DNA of 42,483 bases from Flavobacteriales bacterium (GCA_947488195.1 CANKYR010000007.1:1-42483), one strand, 5' to 3'. Shown: positions 21,647 through 42,425, counted from the first letter of the stretch. Numbers and translations: made by a program. The notes: generated from the letters alone by a model not told the origin.

Positions 21647-23089
21647 ATGAAACACCTACTTACACTCAGCACACTCGTTGTTGGGCTTTTGATTTCTGCA
21701 GGCATGAGCGCACAAAACAATTTTGGATTGGGCACTACTACTCCAGATCCGAGCGCCATGTTAGAAGTGACTTCAACCACTCAAGGTGTTTTAGTTCCGC
21801 GACTTTCCAGCCTTCAAAGAACAGCTATTCCCGCTCCAGCAAATGGATTACTTGTATTCGATACAGACGTTAGTTGTTTTTTCTTTTTTACCACTGGAGC
21901 ATGGACAAATCTTTGCAGTGCAAGTGTAGGACCTCAAGGACCTCAAGGACCTCAAGGGCCTCAAGGGCCTGCGGGAGCTGATGGGGTCGATGGAGCGCCT
22001 GGAGTAAATGGCATAAACGGTGCAGATGGTGTCGATGGTATCGATGGTATCGATGGAATAAATGGCAATCAAGGGCCTGCGGGAGCTGATGGGATCGATG
22101 GTGCGCCCGGAGTAAATGGCATAAACGGTGCAGACGGTGTCGATGGAATAAATGGCATCGATGGTGCAACGGGGGCTACAGGTCCAAACTGGTCAATTAA
22201 TTCCATGACTTACAATCCGAATGGAACATTAACTGTGAACACCTCACAACCCGCTGCAGTTTCGACAACGGGTTCAGCGTGGCTTATTGGCGGTAACGCT
22301 CTTACGGGAACTGGAAACCTTGGGACAACCTCAAACAACCACATAGATTTAATTTCGAACAACATTGTGCGTGGTCGTCTTTCAAATCTTGGTGAATTTT
22401 TTATTGGAACAACAAACACAACACTAGCAGGAGATTTGGTGAACGGTGTTAGCAACGCTGTCTTTCCTTGGGCACTGAACGGTTATTCAGCAAACAATGG
22501 AAGTGGGGTGTACGGTGCAATTCAAGCTAACACAAATACCCAATTCGCAGGAGTTCAGGGAGAGTCAGACGCTTTGAACGGCACAGCGCCAGGCGTGCGA
22601 GGTCTAGGGTTAAAACTTACTTTAAACGGTGTGAATGGGGCGCGAGCGGGAACGGGAGCAAATACGGGATGGGGTGGATTGTTTCAAAATGATCTTGGGT
22701 ATACTGGTATTTTCGCAGTGGCATCTGATGCACGATTGAAAAAAAATATCGCCACCATTAATGACCCTCTTAAATTAGTCATGAAACTTCGTGGTGTAAC
22801 TTATGAGCACCGTCTAGATGATCCCAACTATTCAGATTTAGGGTTGAAACAAGGCTTGGCTTATGGTTTCATAGCACAAGAGGTTGAAACTGTTTTACCC
22901 GAATTAGTTTTCGAAAAACTCATCCCACATATTAATAGCAGTCAAAGGAGCAGGGCAGAATCTAAACCTGCCGAATTACTAAAAACGGTTAGTTATATTG
23001 AAATGATTCCAATTCTTTTGGAAGCTATAAAACAACAACAAGTTCAAATAGAGCAATTGCAAAATCAATTGAATTCATTGCAGAAATAA
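21647..23089 (+). CDS. Collagen-like (Gly-X-Y) protein with C-terminal peptidase S74 / endosialidase-chaperone domain
   Basis: 480 aa; signal peptide; GPQGPQGPQGPQGPAGADGVDGAPGVNGINGADGVDGIDGIDGINGNQGPAGADG...; C-terminal SDARLKKNIATINDPLKLVMKLRGVTYEHR...YGFIAQEVETVLPELV...VSYIEMIPILLEAIKQQQ typical of S74. Confidence 0.93.
   Translation: MKHLLTLSTLVVGLLISAGMSAQNNFGLGTTTPDPSAMLEVTSTTQGVLVPRLSSLQRTAIPAPANGLLVFDTDVSCFFFFTTGAWTNLCSASVGPQGPQGPQGPQGPAGADGVDGAPGVNGINGADGVDGIDGIDGINGNQGPAGADGIDGAPGVNGINGADGVDGINGIDGATGATGPNWSINSMTYNPNGTLTVNTSQPAAVSTTGSAWLIGGNALTGTGNLGTTSNNHIDLISNNIVRGRLSNLGEFFIGTTNTTLAGDLVNGVSNAVFPWALNGYSANNGSGVYGAIQANTNTQFAGVQGESDALNGTAPGVRGLGLKLTLNGVNGARAGTGANTGWGGLFQNDLGYTGIFAVASDARLKKNIATINDPLKLVMKLRGVTYEHRLDDPNYSDLGLKQGLAYGFIAQEVETVLPELVFEKLIPHINSSQRSRAESKPAELLKTVSYIEMIPILLEAIKQQQVQIEQLQNQLNSLQK
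21931..22183 (+). repeat. Collagen-like GXY coding repeat with an internal duplication at 108-bp spacing
   Basis: CAAGGGCCTGCGGGAGCTGATGGG(G/A)TCGATGG... occurs at 21962 and again at 22070. Confidence 0.8.
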
Positions 23090-35630: not shown

Positions 35631-38600
35631 GTGGCGAAATTGCGATGTATTTTTACATTTCCAACTAAAATAAAGGCCATAAGAAAACTAATTTCCATAT
35701 TCATTCTAACGATTTGCCTTGGGACACTTCACGCCCAAAAGCCGATTGACGAAAAAACATTAGCCGCCGAGGCGAATGTGTTTTTTGAGGAAGGAAATTA
35801 CGTGCAAGCCTACGCCGTGTATTCGCAATTGGTGTCGCTATACGGAAGCAATCCCTTGTATGCCTTCCGTTTTGGTGCCGCGGGTATTTATGCAACGACT
35901 GATCGCGACAATTGCATTTTCTTCATGAAAGACGGGATTCGAAGAGGATATACTGAACCTGAAACTCATTATTACTTGGCGCGAGCTTACCACCTAAGCT
36001 ACAATTTCAAAGAAGCCTTGGTTGAATATGAGAAATTCCAAACCTCGGCAGAAAAAAAACAACTCGCTAAGTCTGATTGCAAAGCACAGAAACTCTCTGC
36101 AGAGTCTGGATTAAACCTTATGAACAGCATTAAGGATGTTCAAGTACTAGAAAAAACAGAGGCGGAAAAATCGAGTTTTTACCGATACATGAACATTGAC
36201 GCCTCGATCGGTAAAATTATCTCTACACCGAACGAATTGCTTTCGAAACTGGATTTAAAGTCGAAAGAAGAACATGTTTTCTTCCTTCCATCTAACGGAA
36301 AGAAAATTTTCTTTTCGAGCAAAGGAAAAGACGGCTTAACAGGGAAAGATATCTACATGACCTCACGTTTGAACGGAGCGTTCACTTCACCCGTTAAGTT
36401 GAAAGGCACAGTTAATACTGAGTTCGATGAGGACTTCGCATTTATGCATCCAAACGGAAGCACACTCTATTTTGCTTCGAAGGGACATGGAAGTATGGGA
36501 GGTTACGATATTTTCCGATGTGATTGGGATGCTAGCATAAATGATTTCGGCCCGGCAATTAATATGGACTTCGCCATTAATACGCCAGACGACGATCTTT
36601 TCTTTATCACAGACTCTTTAAATACAACGGCGTATTTTGCAAGTAGCCGTTTAACTTCTCCAGACAAACTTTATGTCTATCGTGTTTTCGTAAATGGAAT
36701 ACCGATGAACATTACCTATCTCAAAGGTGAATTCATTTCTCGCGTAGATGTGAATCAAACGGAAGCGAAGATTCAGGTGTTCGATGATTTAACGAATCGC
36801 AAAATCATGGACACGCAAGCCCGCGAGTCGAATGGACAGTACCTACTTTTCATTCCGACAGCAGGAGACTACACTTACAAGATTCAACCTCCGGGAAGTC
36901 CGCAAGTTCATGAAGTGCTCGTTAAAATTCCGCCATCGGAAGGTTCTCGTGTGTTCCGACAGGAAATCGTTTACACCAAAACAGATGGACGTGAGAAAGT
37001 TGAAGTAAAAAATTATTGGAACGACCCACTGAACGACAATGTTGAAGACCTGCAACGTCAAATGCTTTTGGCAAAATCCCAACTCGATGTGAATGCTACC
37101 GCAGATCAAGTTAATTCCATTGCTTCGAACTCAAGCAATTCAAATTCAACGGAAACGAATAGCACTGAAATTGACCCAGTTAAGCAGCGTGTAGAGATAG
37201 ACACGGTTTTGTCTTCGCAGGAAAAAACTATTGCAGCGCTTAAACGAGAAATTGCGCTCGCAGAACAAATTTCTAAATCGCTTCTTCAATTTGTTCAACA
37301 AACACTTTCTGAAACAGACGAAGCGTATGAGGAATTTCAAAACGTTCGGTTTGAAAAACCAGAATCGTTAGCCGATAGCGCGAAGCTAGTAGAAGTGCGA
37401 AACAAAATGATTGAAACCCAAGATCGCAGCATTGCAGCTATTGCGGCTTTCGACATTTCAAAAAACAGAGAAAAAGAACTGAATGAAAAACTGAACAATG
37501 TTCAAAATATTAATTCGGAAATCAAAAAATCACTCGCCGAAAAAGACTCTCCCATGGCCGCATACTTAGTCAATGACTATATCGCTAAAAACCCGAAAAG
37601 TGAACAAGGAGTTGCTACTGAAACAGAAATCTCGTGGAAATCGCAAGATGCTAAAGTCAAAGCAAACGAATTAAAAGCTCAGCGCGACGACACGCAATTA
37701 AGGATTAATACCAAGTCGAAAGAGTTAGAAGGGATAGAAGATAAAACAACTGAAATCATTAAGCAAATAGCAACCACTAAAAAGAAAAAAGACATTGAGC
37801 GATTGGGAAGTGAACTAGCTGCGCTCGAAACTGAATACAAATCAATTGAAGAAGAAATTGAGGATGAAAAGGAAAATCTTCGTGTCCGAGAATTGGCACT
37901 TGCTGAATCTGCAACATTATTGAAATTGCTTCAAGACCTTGAGAACGAAAAGCAACCTGAAGTAAAACCGGAATTCAAAAACTTAACCAACACTGTAAAT
38001 GTAGAGTCGTTGAAAACTGAAATTAACGAATCCAAAAATCGTGTTTCAACGGCCTTGGAAAATTCTCATTATGAGAATTCGGACACTTCCAACAACGCCA
38101 GTTCCAACAACGCCAGTTCCAACAATGCCAGTTCTAACAACGCGAGTTCAAACAACGCTAGTTCCAACAATGCTAGTTCCAACAACGCCAGTTCCAACAA
38201 TGCCAGTTCTAACAACGCGAGTTCAAACAACGCTAGTTCCAACAATGCTAGTTCCAACAACGCCAATTCTAACAACGCAAGTCCAAAAACTTTCACAGCA
38301 GCAGAAGCTGTAATTATAAATAGCCCTGGACAATCGAATTACCGTGATGAAAATATTTTCGAAGAGTTGACTGCAGCGAACATTGAAATTTCCAATCAAG
38401 CAGAAATTGAAAATATCTACACTCAAATTGAGACCATCAATAGTCGAATAAAAGAAGAAACTTCCGCTGAAGTTGTTGCCGAATTGACTGATCAAAGAAA
38501 TCAACTGACCTATCAAAAAATGCAAGAAGAGGATAAGAATGCTGCGCTAATTGCAGAGCACAATTCGAATTCACTTATCGATCTTCAATCGGCTTGGAAA

Positions 38601-40061
38601 AAGAACACAAGCGCATCTACCAGTATTGCGACATTAAGCGACAAGAAGGCATACGACATTGCAGTGGCCTATATGAAAGAGGCAAGCACACTCCGAGCAG
38701 CTGCCAAAACAGAAACCGATTTCTTTGAACGTTATGCAAAAAACGCGCGTGCATTTGCACTTGAGCGAAATGCAAAAAACGAATTGCAATTTTTAGTAGA
38801 AAAGACTACTCCAACTGCTAACAACGCTAGTTCCAATAACGCTAGTTCAAACAACGCTAGTTCCAACAACGCTAGTTCTAACAACGCTAGTTCAAACAAC
38901 GCTAGTTCAAACAACGCTAGTTCAAACAACGCCAGTTCCAATAACGCTAGTTCCAACAACGCTAGTTCCAACAACGCTAGTTCTAACAACGCTAGTTCAA
39001 ACAACGCTAGTTCAAACAACGCTAGTTCAAACAACGCTAGTTCAAACAACGCCAGTTCCAACAACGCCAGTTCAAACAACGCTAGTTCCAATAACGCTAG
39101 TTCCAACAACGCTAGTTCCAACAACGCTAGTTCTAACAACGCTAGTTCAAACAACGCTAGTTCCAACAACGCTAGTTCTTACAACGCTAGTTCAAACAAC
39201 GCTAGTTCAAACAACGCTAGTTCAAACAACGCCAGTTCCAACAACGCCAGTTCCAACAACGCTAGTTCAAACAACGCTAGTTCCAACAACGCTAGTTCAT
39301 TCACAAGTATACCAGCGATCATCCAAAAAACGCTTTATCAAAAGCAAACAGTTTCGGCCTACAGCGACGCGAAGCCTATTCCAATTGGATTACCTCTGCC
39401 AGAAGGTTCGTTCTATACCATTCAAGTTGGAGCCTTCCGATCACCTGTGGCGAACAATACCTTTAGTCAGTTCGCTCCTGTTTATGCAGAGCGTCAAACA
39501 AATGGATTCATTCGCTACAGCACAGGATTCTTCTCTTCTTACACCGAAGCAATTCAAGCTCGAAATGAAATTCGTCAAATGGGCTATGCAGACGCATTTA
39601 TTGTTGCTTATAAAAACAGGGAGCGTGTTCGCTACAGCGAACTTATGACCACGGCTGAGCGGGCTAACGCTTCTGGTGAAAATGTTATTCCAACAAATAC
39701 GAATCTAACGAACACGGCGTCTATAGCTCCGGTAATAGATGTGACCTATTATTCAGATCCGCTAGCAGTGCCTGCAAATCTTATTGAAAAGACAGAAGGA
39801 ATTTTCTTCACGGTGCAGATTGGTGTATATGCAAAACCTTCGAGAAACCCTATTCTCAATACCTACTCAGAGCTGCATGTAGAAAAACTTCAGAATGGAC
39901 AAGTTCGTTATACTAGCGGCAAGTTTAAAACTATTGCTGATGTTGTGAAGCAGCGAGATTTTGTGAGAGCTAATGGAATTCCAGATGCATTTATTACGGC
40001 CTATAAAAACGGCAAGCGCATAACGGTACCCGACGCGAAAAAAGAATTGGGAATTCAATAA
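35631..40061 (+). CDS. Giant envelope protein: TPR-like, PD40/WD40-like propeller, CRD-like domain, coiled coil, two (NNASS)n spacers, two C-terminal SPOR domains
   Basis: ORF-track start 35481 overlaps DUF423 antisense; GTG 35631 or TTG 35640 precede the signal peptide IRKLISIFILTICLGTLHAQ. KKIFFSSKGKDGLTGKDIYMTSRLNG and STLYFASKGHGSMGGYDIFRC PD40 motifs; two SPOR-like units (FYTIQVGAFRSPVANNTF...YADAFIVAYKNRERV and FFTVQIGVYAKPSRNPI...IPDAFITAYKNGKRI). Confidence 0.9.
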   Translation: MAKLRCIFTFPTKIKAIRKLISIFILTICLGTLHAQKPIDEKTLAAEANVFFEEGNYVQAYAVYSQLVSLYGSNPLYAFRFGAAGIYATTDRDNCIFFMKDGIRRGYTEPETHYYLARAYHLSYNFKEALVEYEKFQTSAEKKQLAKSDCKAQKLSAESGLNLMNSIKDVQVLEKTEAEKSSFYRYMNIDASIGKIISTPNELLSKLDLKSKEEHVFFLPSNGKKIFFSSKGKDGLTGKDIYMTSRLNGAFTSPVKLKGTVNTEFDEDFAFMHPNGSTLYFASKGHGSMGGYDIFRCDWDASINDFGPAINMDFAINTPDDDLFFITDSLNTTAYFASSRLTSPDKLYVYRVFVNGIPMNITYLKGEFISRVDVNQTEAKIQVFDDLTNRKIMDTQARESNGQYLLFIPTAGDYTYKIQPPGSPQVHEVLVKIPPSEGSRVFRQEIVYTKTDGREKVEVKNYWNDPLNDNVEDLQRQMLLAKSQLDVNATADQVNSIASNSSNSNSTETNSTEIDPVKQRVEIDTVLSSQEKTIAALKREIALAEQISKSLLQFVQQTLSETDEAYEEFQNVRFEKPESLADSAKLVEVRNKMIETQDRSIAAIAAFDISKNREKELNEKLNNVQNINSEIKKSLAEKDSPMAAYLVNDYIAKNPKSEQGVATETEISWKSQDAKVKANELKAQRDDTQLRINTKSKELEGIEDKTTEIIKQIATTKKKKDIERLGSELAALETEYKSIEEEIEDEKENLRVRELALAESATLLKLLQDLENEKQPEVKPEFKNLTNTVNVESLKTEINESKNRVSTALENSHYENSDTSNNASSNNASSNNASSNNASSNNASSNNASSNNASSNNASSNNASSNNASSNNASSNNANSNNASPKTFTAAEAVIINSPGQSNYRDENIFEELTAANIEISNQAEIENIYTQIETINSRIKEETSAEVVAELTDQRNQLTYQKMQEEDKNAALIAEHNSNSLIDLQSAWKKNTSASTSIATLSDKKAYDIAVAYMKEASTLRAAAKTETDFFERYAKNARAFALERNAKNELQFLVEKTTPTANNASSNNASSNNASSNNASSNNASSNNASSNNASSNNASSNNASSNNASSNNASSNNASSNNASSNNASSNNASSNNASSNNASSNNASSNNASSNNASSNNASSNNASSNNASSNNASSYNASSNNASSNNASSNNASSNNASSNNASSNNASSNNASSFTSIPAIIQKTLYQKQTVSAYSDAKPIPIGLPLPEGSFYTIQVGAFRSPVANNTFSQFAPVYAERQTNGFIRYSTGFFSSYTEAIQARNEIRQMGYADAFIVAYKNRERVRYSELMTTAERANASGENVIPTNTNLTNTASIAPVIDVTYYSDPLAVPANLIEKTEGIFFTVQIGVYAKPSRNPILNTYSELHVEKLQNGQVRYTSGKFKTIADVVKQRDFVRANGIPDAFITAYKNGKRITVPDAKKELGIQ
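38091..38285 (+). repeat. 15-bp coding minisatellite block 1: 13 units encoding NNASS, with a duplicated 75-bp higher-order unit
   Basis: AACAACGCCAGTTCC-type units; units 2-6 are identical to units 7-11. Confidence 0.97.
38820..39299 (+). repeat. 15-bp coding minisatellite block 2: 32 units encoding NNASS (one YNASS)
   Basis: AACAACGCTAGTTC(A/C/T) units; an identical 60-nt string starts at 38881, 39001 and 39181. Confidence 0.97.
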
Positions 40062-40108
40062 GACCTTTCGAATTAACGTTCATTGGATTGGATTCAAAAC
40101 TATTCGCT

Positions 40109-40116
40109 TAACTTTG
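40109..40116 (+). promoter_or_regulatory. Candidate -7 element TAACTTTG for the lamin-tail gene
   Basis: GCTTAACTTTGAGATAAC, 20 nt before the ATG at 40137. Confidence 0.4.
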
Positions 40117-40136
40117 AGATAACATACTTATTGAAA

Positions 40137-41777
40137 ATGAAATTCTATCTGATACTCCTTTGTTTTTTGTCAACTCCCTTCTTTGGAACAGCCCAACTTC
40201 AGTTGAATGAAATTTTAGCTTCGAACAACGCAAACCAAATGGACGAGTTTTTCGAATTCGACGATTGGATTGAAATCTACAACCCGGGGGGAATTATTAA
40301 TCTAGCAGGTTATTATTTATCTGACGACCCCTTGCTTTTAACAAAGCATCAAATTCCTGCGACTGATCCTGGCGCAACGATAATGCTTCCTGGAAGTTTC
40401 AAGGCAGTCTTCGCCGACAATGACAATTTAACACAAGGAGCGCTGCATCTAAACTTCACATTGAGTTCGAATGGCGAACATGTATTTTTAACTGCGCCAG
40501 ATGGTGTAACTATTATTGACAGCATTTCATACCCCCAAATGGCTTCGGATATTAGTTACGGACGTGCTTGTGAAGCTTGTACAACCTGGCAATATTTTAA
40601 TAATGTCACCTACTCTGCACCTAATTTAGAACTCCCTCAAACTTCAGAATTACTTTTCTTAAATGAAGTTCAGCCCGAGAACACAGGAATCTATCATGAC
40701 CCCGAATTTGAATATGACCCTTGGATTGAAATTTACAATCCAAATTCGTTTCAAGTGAATTTGGGTGGATATTATCTTAGCGTTGACGGAACTCCTTCAC
40801 AATGGCTTATTCCTACCAACGAACCCTACAATACTGTAATTGCTCCAAATAGTTTCAAAGTTTTTTGGTGTGACAACGATCTAGCTTTTGGTGCAACACA
40901 CGCACCTATTGTTTTGAATCCCTCAGGAGGCACGGCTTCACTTACTGGTCCCGATGGAATAACTCCTGTAAGTTCACTCGCATGGGGAGCTCTTTCTGCA
41001 GGCCAAAGCGCTGGGTGCACAACAGACGGCGCACCTTCTATCACAACCTTTAATCCGGCTACTCCGATAAACAGCAACACCTTAATCTTTATAACTCCAA
41101 AACCTGTTGTTATTAATGAAGTTATGGCAGATAACATTTTAACATTCGCGGATAACTATGGACAATTCGATGATTGGGTTGAAATTTATAATCCATTGAA
41201 CTACGATGTAAGTCTAGCCGGCTACTTCTTGAGTGACGACAGCAATAATCCAAGAAGGTGGCAAATACCAGCAACATTCTTAGATAGTGTCACTGTACCA
41301 AGTCTAGGATGGCTCACTTTTTTTATTGACGACAGTGGTTCACAAGGGGTACGACACGCAAGCTTTAATTTAAATAACAACAATGAGTTTATTGGATTGT
41401 ACAGTCCGGATGGATTAACCCGTGTAGATGAAATCGCATGGGTGCACATGGATGCCGACACCAGTCTTGGTCGACTTACAGACGGAAGCCCTGAATGGGT
41501 AAACTTCATCGTCACTACCCCTGATTTCTCCAATAACCAGGGTGTCATAAGCGTTCAAGAAATGAATGCCTCTGAAAAAATATTTTCACTTTACCCGAAC
41601 CCAACCAGAGGCATTGTACAATGCTCGAAGAAAAGCAACATTCGCGTTTACTCTATTCAAGGGAATTTAGTTGAAACCTTCTACGGAGTATTGCAAATTA
41701 ATTTCAGCAACTACGGCGCTGGAATTTATATTGTGACCGATGAAGAAGGAAATAAACTGAGAATAATTAAAGAATAG
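40137..41777 (+). CDS. Secreted protein with three lamin-tail domains and T9SS type A C-terminal domain
   Basis: MKFYLILLCFLSTPFFGTAQ signal; three LNEI/NEV...DDWIEIYNP...LAGYYLSDD units; C-terminal LYPNPTRGIVQCSKKSNIRVYSIQGNLVETF...YGAGIYIVTDEEGNKLRIIKE. ORF-track start (TTG 40083) is probably too early. Confidence 0.9.
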   Translation: MKFYLILLCFLSTPFFGTAQLQLNEILASNNANQMDEFFEFDDWIEIYNPGGIINLAGYYLSDDPLLLTKHQIPATDPGATIMLPGSFKAVFADNDNLTQGALHLNFTLSSNGEHVFLTAPDGVTIIDSISYPQMASDISYGRACEACTTWQYFNNVTYSAPNLELPQTSELLFLNEVQPENTGIYHDPEFEYDPWIEIYNPNSFQVNLGGYYLSVDGTPSQWLIPTNEPYNTVIAPNSFKVFWCDNDLAFGATHAPIVLNPSGGTASLTGPDGITPVSSLAWGALSAGQSAGCTTDGAPSITTFNPATPINSNTLIFITPKPVVINEVMADNILTFADNYGQFDDWVEIYNPLNYDVSLAGYFLSDDSNNPRRWQIPATFLDSVTVPSLGWLTFFIDDSGSQGVRHASFNLNNNNEFIGLYSPDGLTRVDEIAWVHMDADTSLGRLTDGSPEWVNFIVTTPDFSNNQGVISVQEMNASEKIFSLYPNPTRGIVQCSKKSNIRVYSIQGNLVETFYGVLQINFSNYGAGIYIVTDEEGNKLRIIKE

Positions 41778-41816: not shown

Positions 41817-42425
41817 TTATTCAACTCCCATGTATTTATGAATTTGAAGACCCACACGCCAATGTGGGTTTTTTAGTACCCATTCGAAAATCAGCGGTAA
41901 CATAATTTCTCGCTTATCCCATTCAGGCTGCATAAACCACTGAGCATGTTCATTCATGCGTGCAGACAATTCATGAGACCATTCAATATCTGACTTATGA
42001 GCAATCACTACTTTCAATTCATTTGATAATTGGAAATATTCCTCCAACGGTGCTTTAAACTTCTTTGGCGAAAAGGTAATCCAATCGAAAAGTCCGGTTA
42101 ATTTTTGAGTACCACTCGTCTCTAGGTGAATGCCCAAACCCTCATTACGCAAAGCTTCTGTCAATGGCGATAAATCATGCATAGTGGGTTCTCCACCGGT
42201 AACAATAACTACTTTCACTCCACTCCCAACGGCTGCTTCAACAAGCGTGTCGAGAGATACAAGCGGATGCTTTTCTTTGTCCCAACTCTCCTTCACATCG
42301 CACCAAACACAACCAACGTCGCATCCAGCCAATCGAATAAAAAAACTTGGAACACCTGTGTAAACGCCTTCACCCTGAATGCTGGTGAAGGTCTCCATTA
42401 CAGGATATTTCACTTCAGAACTCAC
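41817..42425 (-). CDS. queE: 7-carboxy-7-deazaguanine synthase (radical SAM), GTG start
   Basis: 202 aa; ETFTSIQGEGVYTGVPSFFIRLAGCDVGCVWCDVKESWD and VIVTGGEPTMHDLSPL are QueE motifs; start GTG at 42425. Confidence 0.95.
   Translation of the reverse strand: MSSEVKYPVMETFTSIQGEGVYTGVPSFFIRLAGCDVGCVWCDVKESWDKEKHPLVSLDTLVEAAVGSGVKVVIVTGGEPTMHDLSPLTEALRNEGLGIHLETSGTQKLTGLFDWITFSPKKFKAPLEEYFQLSNELKVVIAHKSDIEWSHELSARMNEHAQWFMQPEWDKREIMLPLIFEWVLKNPHWRVGLQIHKYMGVE

Follow-up and report, generated by a model that had tools for sequence, protein, structure and literature searches.

What is the role of a very long envelope protein whose N-terminal half resembles PorE, a scaffold of the type IX secretion system (T9SS), and whose C-terminus carries SPOR domains? 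The question is raised by a gene on a 42,483-nucleotide stretch of DNA from a Flavobacteriales bacterium (GCA_947488195.1, CANKYR010000007.1:1-42483; hereafter, the window), which is contig C7 of a 2.19-Mb genome that is 85% complete. The gene (hereafter, the giant) is a single intact reading frame that closes with a stop codon at 40059-40061, and its product has a signal peptide, a head of TPR, PD40 propeller and CRD-like domains, a long tether and two SPOR domains. It is a very long envelope protein common to many Bacteroidia, and no curated protein family in Pfam or NCBIfam covers its full length. We propose, with about an even chance of being right, that the giant is a soluble periplasmic tether that is directed to the septum and links the outer membrane to peptidoglycan.

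A PorE-like N-terminal half

In single-sequence searches, the giant matched PD40 (7e-7), SPOR (7e-4) and, weakly, TPR in Pfam, and the PorE and CHU_0125 models of NCBIfam far under their cut-offs. These weak signals became clear once relatives were included. All 21 full-length orthologues matched both NF052230 (PorE; 62.6-71.6 bits, cut-off 600) and NF053607 (CHU_0125; 60-74 bits, cut-off 620), and the TPR profile (A1) matched consensus and designed TPR proteins at 1e-9 to 1e-39. Three PorE/CHU_0125-type paralogues from the window genome were aligned with the giant, profile to profile, and the TPR, propeller and CRD were collinear (99.8%, 4e-29). The AlphaFold model of this half (mean predicted local distance difference test, pLDDT, 84.5; predicted template modelling score, pTM, 0.75) contains TPR helices, propeller strands and a beta-sandwich of eight strands at the positions given in Table 1. 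A Foldseek search with the complete N-terminal model found TPR and weak propeller-like structures but none that matched over the whole length. No OmpA match was found in the giant with Pfam, and SPOR stands at the C-terminus instead. The domain order that the first-pass annotation had read by eye, from signal peptide through TPR and PD40 to CRD, with SPOR in place of OmpA_C, was thus borne out, and it is not confined to the window protein, as orthologues make up a single clade.

Orthology with PorE was nevertheless rejected. PorE (PG1058) is, like the giant, an envelope protein with the order TPR, PD40 propeller, CRD and a wall-binding C-terminus, but the giant scores far under the PorE cut-off, carries two SPOR domains where PorE has OmpA_C, is longer by a factor of 2 to 4, has a variable tether, and is not tied to the presence of the T9SS. 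PorE is a lipoprotein (PMC5053529), whereas the giants have no consistent lipobox: 96 of the 102 signal peptides end in the manner of signal peptidase I substrates, and the lipobox-like string seen in five of the 102 lies, by eye, inside the hydrophobic core with a signal peptidase I site after it. Separate PorE-type proteins are also encoded in the same genome, the best full-length one at 429 bits. CHU_0125, a Pal-like protein required for outer-membrane integrity (PMC5891637), likewise joins a TPR-PD40 module to a C-terminal peptidoglycan binder, although that binder is OmpA_C rather than SPOR and CHU_0125, at 656 aa, is shorter than the giant (about 1,460 aa).

The giants, including a form from another family (L193), make up one clade against the PorE-type proteins (support 96/95), a grouping to be read with caution given the long branches. 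The orthologues measure 1,260-2,960 aa, and the clade spans the order. Chance similarity is ruled out by this supported clade, by the profile-profile alignment and by the SPOR matches of all 21 full-length orthologues.

Tandem SPOR domains with conserved glycan-contact residues

SPOR was recognised by Pfam in the C-termini of all these orthologues; the second domain of the window protein, taken alone, is under the Pfam threshold. AlphaFold modelled two SPOR folds at the C-terminus (pLDDT 84), in agreement with the two SPOR-like domains first noted by eye, and Foldseek matched them to RlpA (probability 0.98), CwlC (1.0) and DedD (0.72) at E-values of only 0.04-0.07, probably because each SPOR domain is short. 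RlpA contacts glycan through Q270, A273, F274 and a basic patch, and the corresponding patch of CwlC consists of K42 and K47 (Alcorlo et al., PMC6895207). In the orthologue alignment, neither SPOR domain shows any variation at the glycan-contact Gln (Q42 and Q173 of the pair). In the window protein this residue is Q1265 in SPOR1, within a Q-x-x-A-F motif, and Q1396 in SPOR2, within Q-x-x-V-Y. A HMMER alignment with the CwlC structure 1x60 set a conserved Arg of SPOR1 on CwlC K47, and the Arg at this position is invariant in SPOR1 and nearly invariant in SPOR2. The conservation of these contact residues supports a predicted binding of glycan by the SPOR pair. Additional SPOR-like units beyond the conserved pair occur in the longer orthologues L050 and L059 (L059:5990-14869). 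Our literature search found no paper in which SPOR domains are linked to PD40 or to Flavobacterium.

The SPOR fold, the glycan-contact Gln and the basic residue are shared with the division proteins FtsN, DamX, DedD, RlpA and CwlC, from which the giant differs by its unrelated N-terminal half, by its tandem SPOR domains and by being soluble and exported, with no membrane anchor. The giant might resemble FtsN, DamX and DedD in function too, as a regulator of septal peptidoglycan enzymes whose TPR and propeller would recruit synthases or hydrolases and not the outer membrane. TPR modules bind proteins, and the SPOR proteins DamX and DedD are reported to stimulate class A penicillin-binding proteins (PMC7642682), but we consider this role very improbable, since the N-terminal module comes from a family of outer-membrane-associated anchors and the giant has neither an FtsN-type transmembrane anchor nor a linked peptidoglycan-enzyme gene.

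A tether variable in length and composition

Between CRD and SPOR lie 683-1,847 residues across 21 orthologues. This middle region of the window protein holds two helical stretches (540-819 and 905-1062) that are charged and poor in Gly and Pro, and NNASS spacers, which are encoded by two arrays of 15-bp tandem repeats as the first-pass annotation had described. Of the long coiled coil that was also suggested, only the two charged helical stretches stood. When 3.5-residue periodicity was compared with shuffles, the middle region of the window protein taken as a whole gave no signal; the heptad signal is weak and limited to the first helical stretch (540-820), so a long continuous coiled coil was rejected.

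The NNASS spacer is part of the architecture in the window's genus, to which it is special; relatives carry other tethers, elsewhere charged and helical-looking. Close congeners have 31-59 NNASS units, a more distant one has 7, and the varying copy number among the close ones marks a fast-changing spacer. The L193 form, at the same operon position (L193:8630-12409), has 1,260 aa, a single SPOR domain and a disordered-type tether of about 700 residues rich in Asn, Ser, Ala and Lys. Conserved ends with a middle free in both length and composition fit what would be expected of a leash.

Genomic neighbourhood and distribution

Among the 68 loci with enough upstream sequence, 35 encode a protein of roughly 1,500 aa (hereafter, P1500) one or two genes upstream of the giant on the same strand. 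The usual order is tpiA-prmA-P1500-plsY-giant-clpS-M48 peptidase, in which the housekeeping genes were identified by eye at the sequence level. P1500 is exported and unannotated, with no usable match in Pfam, NCBIfam or the solved structures of the PDB. It lies at C3:8181-12617 in the window genome (further examples, L057:1399-5871 and L059:832-5325), and was found in 240 of the 296 class genomes sampled and in all giant-bearing genomes but one (G098), a nesting for which phylogeny may account. The operon is broken in the window's family, where the next gene after the giant often encodes a lamin-tail-like protein with a T9SS sorting domain.

The composition of the conserved operon, with envelope and housekeeping genes (plsY, the M48 peptidase, P1500) and no divisome genes, is in line with a general tether between outer membrane and peptidoglycan, or an envelope stiffener. 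SPOR would then be a plain glycan binder at any site of amidase or lytic-enzyme activity, with a linker that spans the periplasm or runs along it. The broad stabilisation of the outer membrane by the Pal-like paralogue CHU_0125 (PMC5891637) also speaks for this explanation, which we rate as rather unlikely overall.

About 115 of the 296 Bacteroidia genomes matched the SPOR pair strongly (E < 1e-30) and were counted as carrying the giant; the phylum sample gave no such match beyond this class. SprA was found in 288 of the 296 genomes, of which about 174 are without the giant, and in all giant-bearing genomes but one (G204), although at such a SprA frequency the co-occurrence is uninformative. 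The co-distribution argues against a general requirement of the giant for T9SS secretion, and T9SS dependence as a general rule was rejected. It is likewise unlikely, more so than a general tether, that the giant serves as an accessory T9SS scaffold, that is, a PorE paralogue anchoring the translocon or motor to peptidoglycan. Its PorE-type N-terminal module, the T9SS-sorted gene that follows it in the window's family and the SprA of nearly all giant-bearing genomes would suit such a scaffold, but SprA mostly occurs without the giant, G204 has the giant without a SprA match, the genome encodes separate PorE-type proteins, and no T9SS machinery gene adjoins the giant at the loci. On these grounds the T9SS tie drawn in the first-pass annotation is not supported.

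Start codon and annotated features

The first-pass annotation began the giant at GTG 35631. In four congeners (L017-L020), the reading frame from the upstream stop to the signal peptide contains no ATG, GTG or TTG, and ATT is found at the place where the window species has ATA. The GTG stands upstream of a conserved non-coding block, which in turn lies just upstream of the ATA. A start at the GTG was therefore judged unlikely, and the likely true start is the ATA at 35679, 48 nt downstream. The block is probably a promoter region shared with a divergent DUF423-type gene. The ATT/ATA codon, which is conserved in the genus, comes only about 15 nt after the block, and a very short leader is possible. 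Across the family, an ATG start candidate is absent in 29 of 101 orthologues, and no ATG occurs within 30 codons in 19 of 59 giants versus 70 of 387 neighbouring genes (p = 0.015; about 0.05 with longer windows).

Table 1 Features of the giant and its surroundings, in window coordinates; residues are those of P0001.
Feature	Position	Strand	Residues	Evidence or remark
Giant TPR-PD40-CRD-tether-SPOR-SPOR gene	35679..40061	+		Likely non-ATG start ATA (ATT in congeners)
Conserved non-coding block GCGAATTTGCGATGTATTTTTACAATTCC directly upstream of the giant	35634..35662	+		Kept in six congeneric sequences
Signal peptide IRKLISIFILTICLGTLHA, followed by Q	35679..35735	+		Signal peptidase I type, without lipobox
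TPR domain	35751..36122	+	41-164	AlphaFold helices; profile match to TPR structures
PD40/WD40-like propeller blades	36144..36689	+	172-353	Pfam PF07676; AlphaFold; PorE and CHU_0125 NCBIfam matches
CRD-like beta-sandwich	36714..37031	+	362-467	AlphaFold; hhalign with PorE-type paralogues, alignment extending to residue 463
Charged helical tether segment 1	37248..38087	+	540-819	Weakly heptad-periodic
NNASS array 1	38087..38290	+		15-bp repeat, 13.7 copies
Charged helical tether segment 2	38343..38816	+	905-1062	
NNASS array 2	38820..39299	+		15-bp repeat, 32 copies
SPOR domain 1	39402..39629	+	1258-1333	Glycan-contact Q1265, A1268, F1269; basic R1295
SPOR domain 2	39801..40022	+	1391-1464	Q1396, V1399, Y1400, R1426
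Lamin-tail-like secreted protein with T9SS type A sorting domain	40083..41777	+		Downstream of the giant, co-directional

QueE is encoded at 41817-42425 of the window and is near the giant in the window's genus only; queEC has been reported to co-occur with porE, which makes this placement a suggestive coincidence and no more. Elsewhere in the window, Gly and Asp codons abound in tandem repeats of 9, 54 and 108 bp (21928-22164), which are possibly collagen-like. The near relatives of the window genome in the named collection are uncultured Flavobacteriales. Several public records of metagenome-assembled genomes titled Chryseobacterium gleum (L063, L065, L066 and others) cluster with these uncultured Flavobacteriales, and the title looks wrong.

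A proposed septal tether between outer membrane and peptidoglycan

In Bacteroidetes, tol-pal loci have not been found and the drawing-in of the outer membrane at division is an open question; PorE has been read as CpoB, TolB, CP and Pal in one chain, and a 2025 paper proposed that this TolB/CpoB-like module substitutes for Tol-Pal in Bacteroidota, with a part in outer membrane-peptidoglycan tethering and septal trafficking (PMC12204202). The giant carries the same three head parts as PorE in that reading, with SPOR replacing Pal. In the window genome, at its 85% completeness, no TolB above the curated cut-off was found (best 52.8 versus 343 bits). The giant and Tol-Pal (TolB, CpoB, Pal) each combine a propeller, TPR and a peptidoglycan binder, and a role in outer-membrane constriction is possible for the giant; it differs in being one chain and in having SPOR instead of the Pal domain, and a shared mechanism is hypothetical.

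In the proposed mechanism, the giant would be exported by Sec and then cleaved by signal peptidase. The TPR-propeller-CRD module would dock on a partner in, or associated with, the outer membrane. At the other end of a long leash formed by the middle region, the two SPOR domains would hold on to denuded glycan that amidases produce where the septum constricts. The outer membrane would in this way be held at or recruited to the division site, which is the job of Tol-Pal in proteobacteria. We infer septal localisation from the SPOR domain alone. The SPOR role is the better-supported step of the scheme, whereas we infer the outer-membrane partner and the role in division.

Several points weigh against a septal tether. 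No lipid anchor was found in the giant, so attachment to the outer membrane would need a partner, and no divisome gene adjoins the giant at the loci. SPOR could bind glycan elsewhere than at the septum, and by sequence it matches solved structures weakly (0.0077) despite a clear match in fold. In the window's family, several genera with small genomes gave no strong match to the giant, which is thus dispensable there; P1500 is kept in these genera. A septum-linked tether between outer membrane and peptidoglycan remains the best reading, since the contact Gln and the basic residue are kept in both SPOR domains, and this part of the first-pass interpretation was retained.

A more specific version is tentative and on balance doubtful, namely that the giant is a septum-specific, single-chain counterpart of Tol-Pal in Bacteroidia that works with P1500 and, in the window's genus, is synthesised at a low level through its AUU/AUA start. 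Its TolB/CpoB-like head would sit on the outer membrane and its SPOR hooks on septal glycan, joined by a leash that reaches about 1,850 residues at its longest.

A clade-wide gene that joins a proposed TolB/CpoB-like module to septal-glycan domains makes the question of outer-membrane constriction testable. The giant also points to P1500, an equally conserved and unannotated partner protein.

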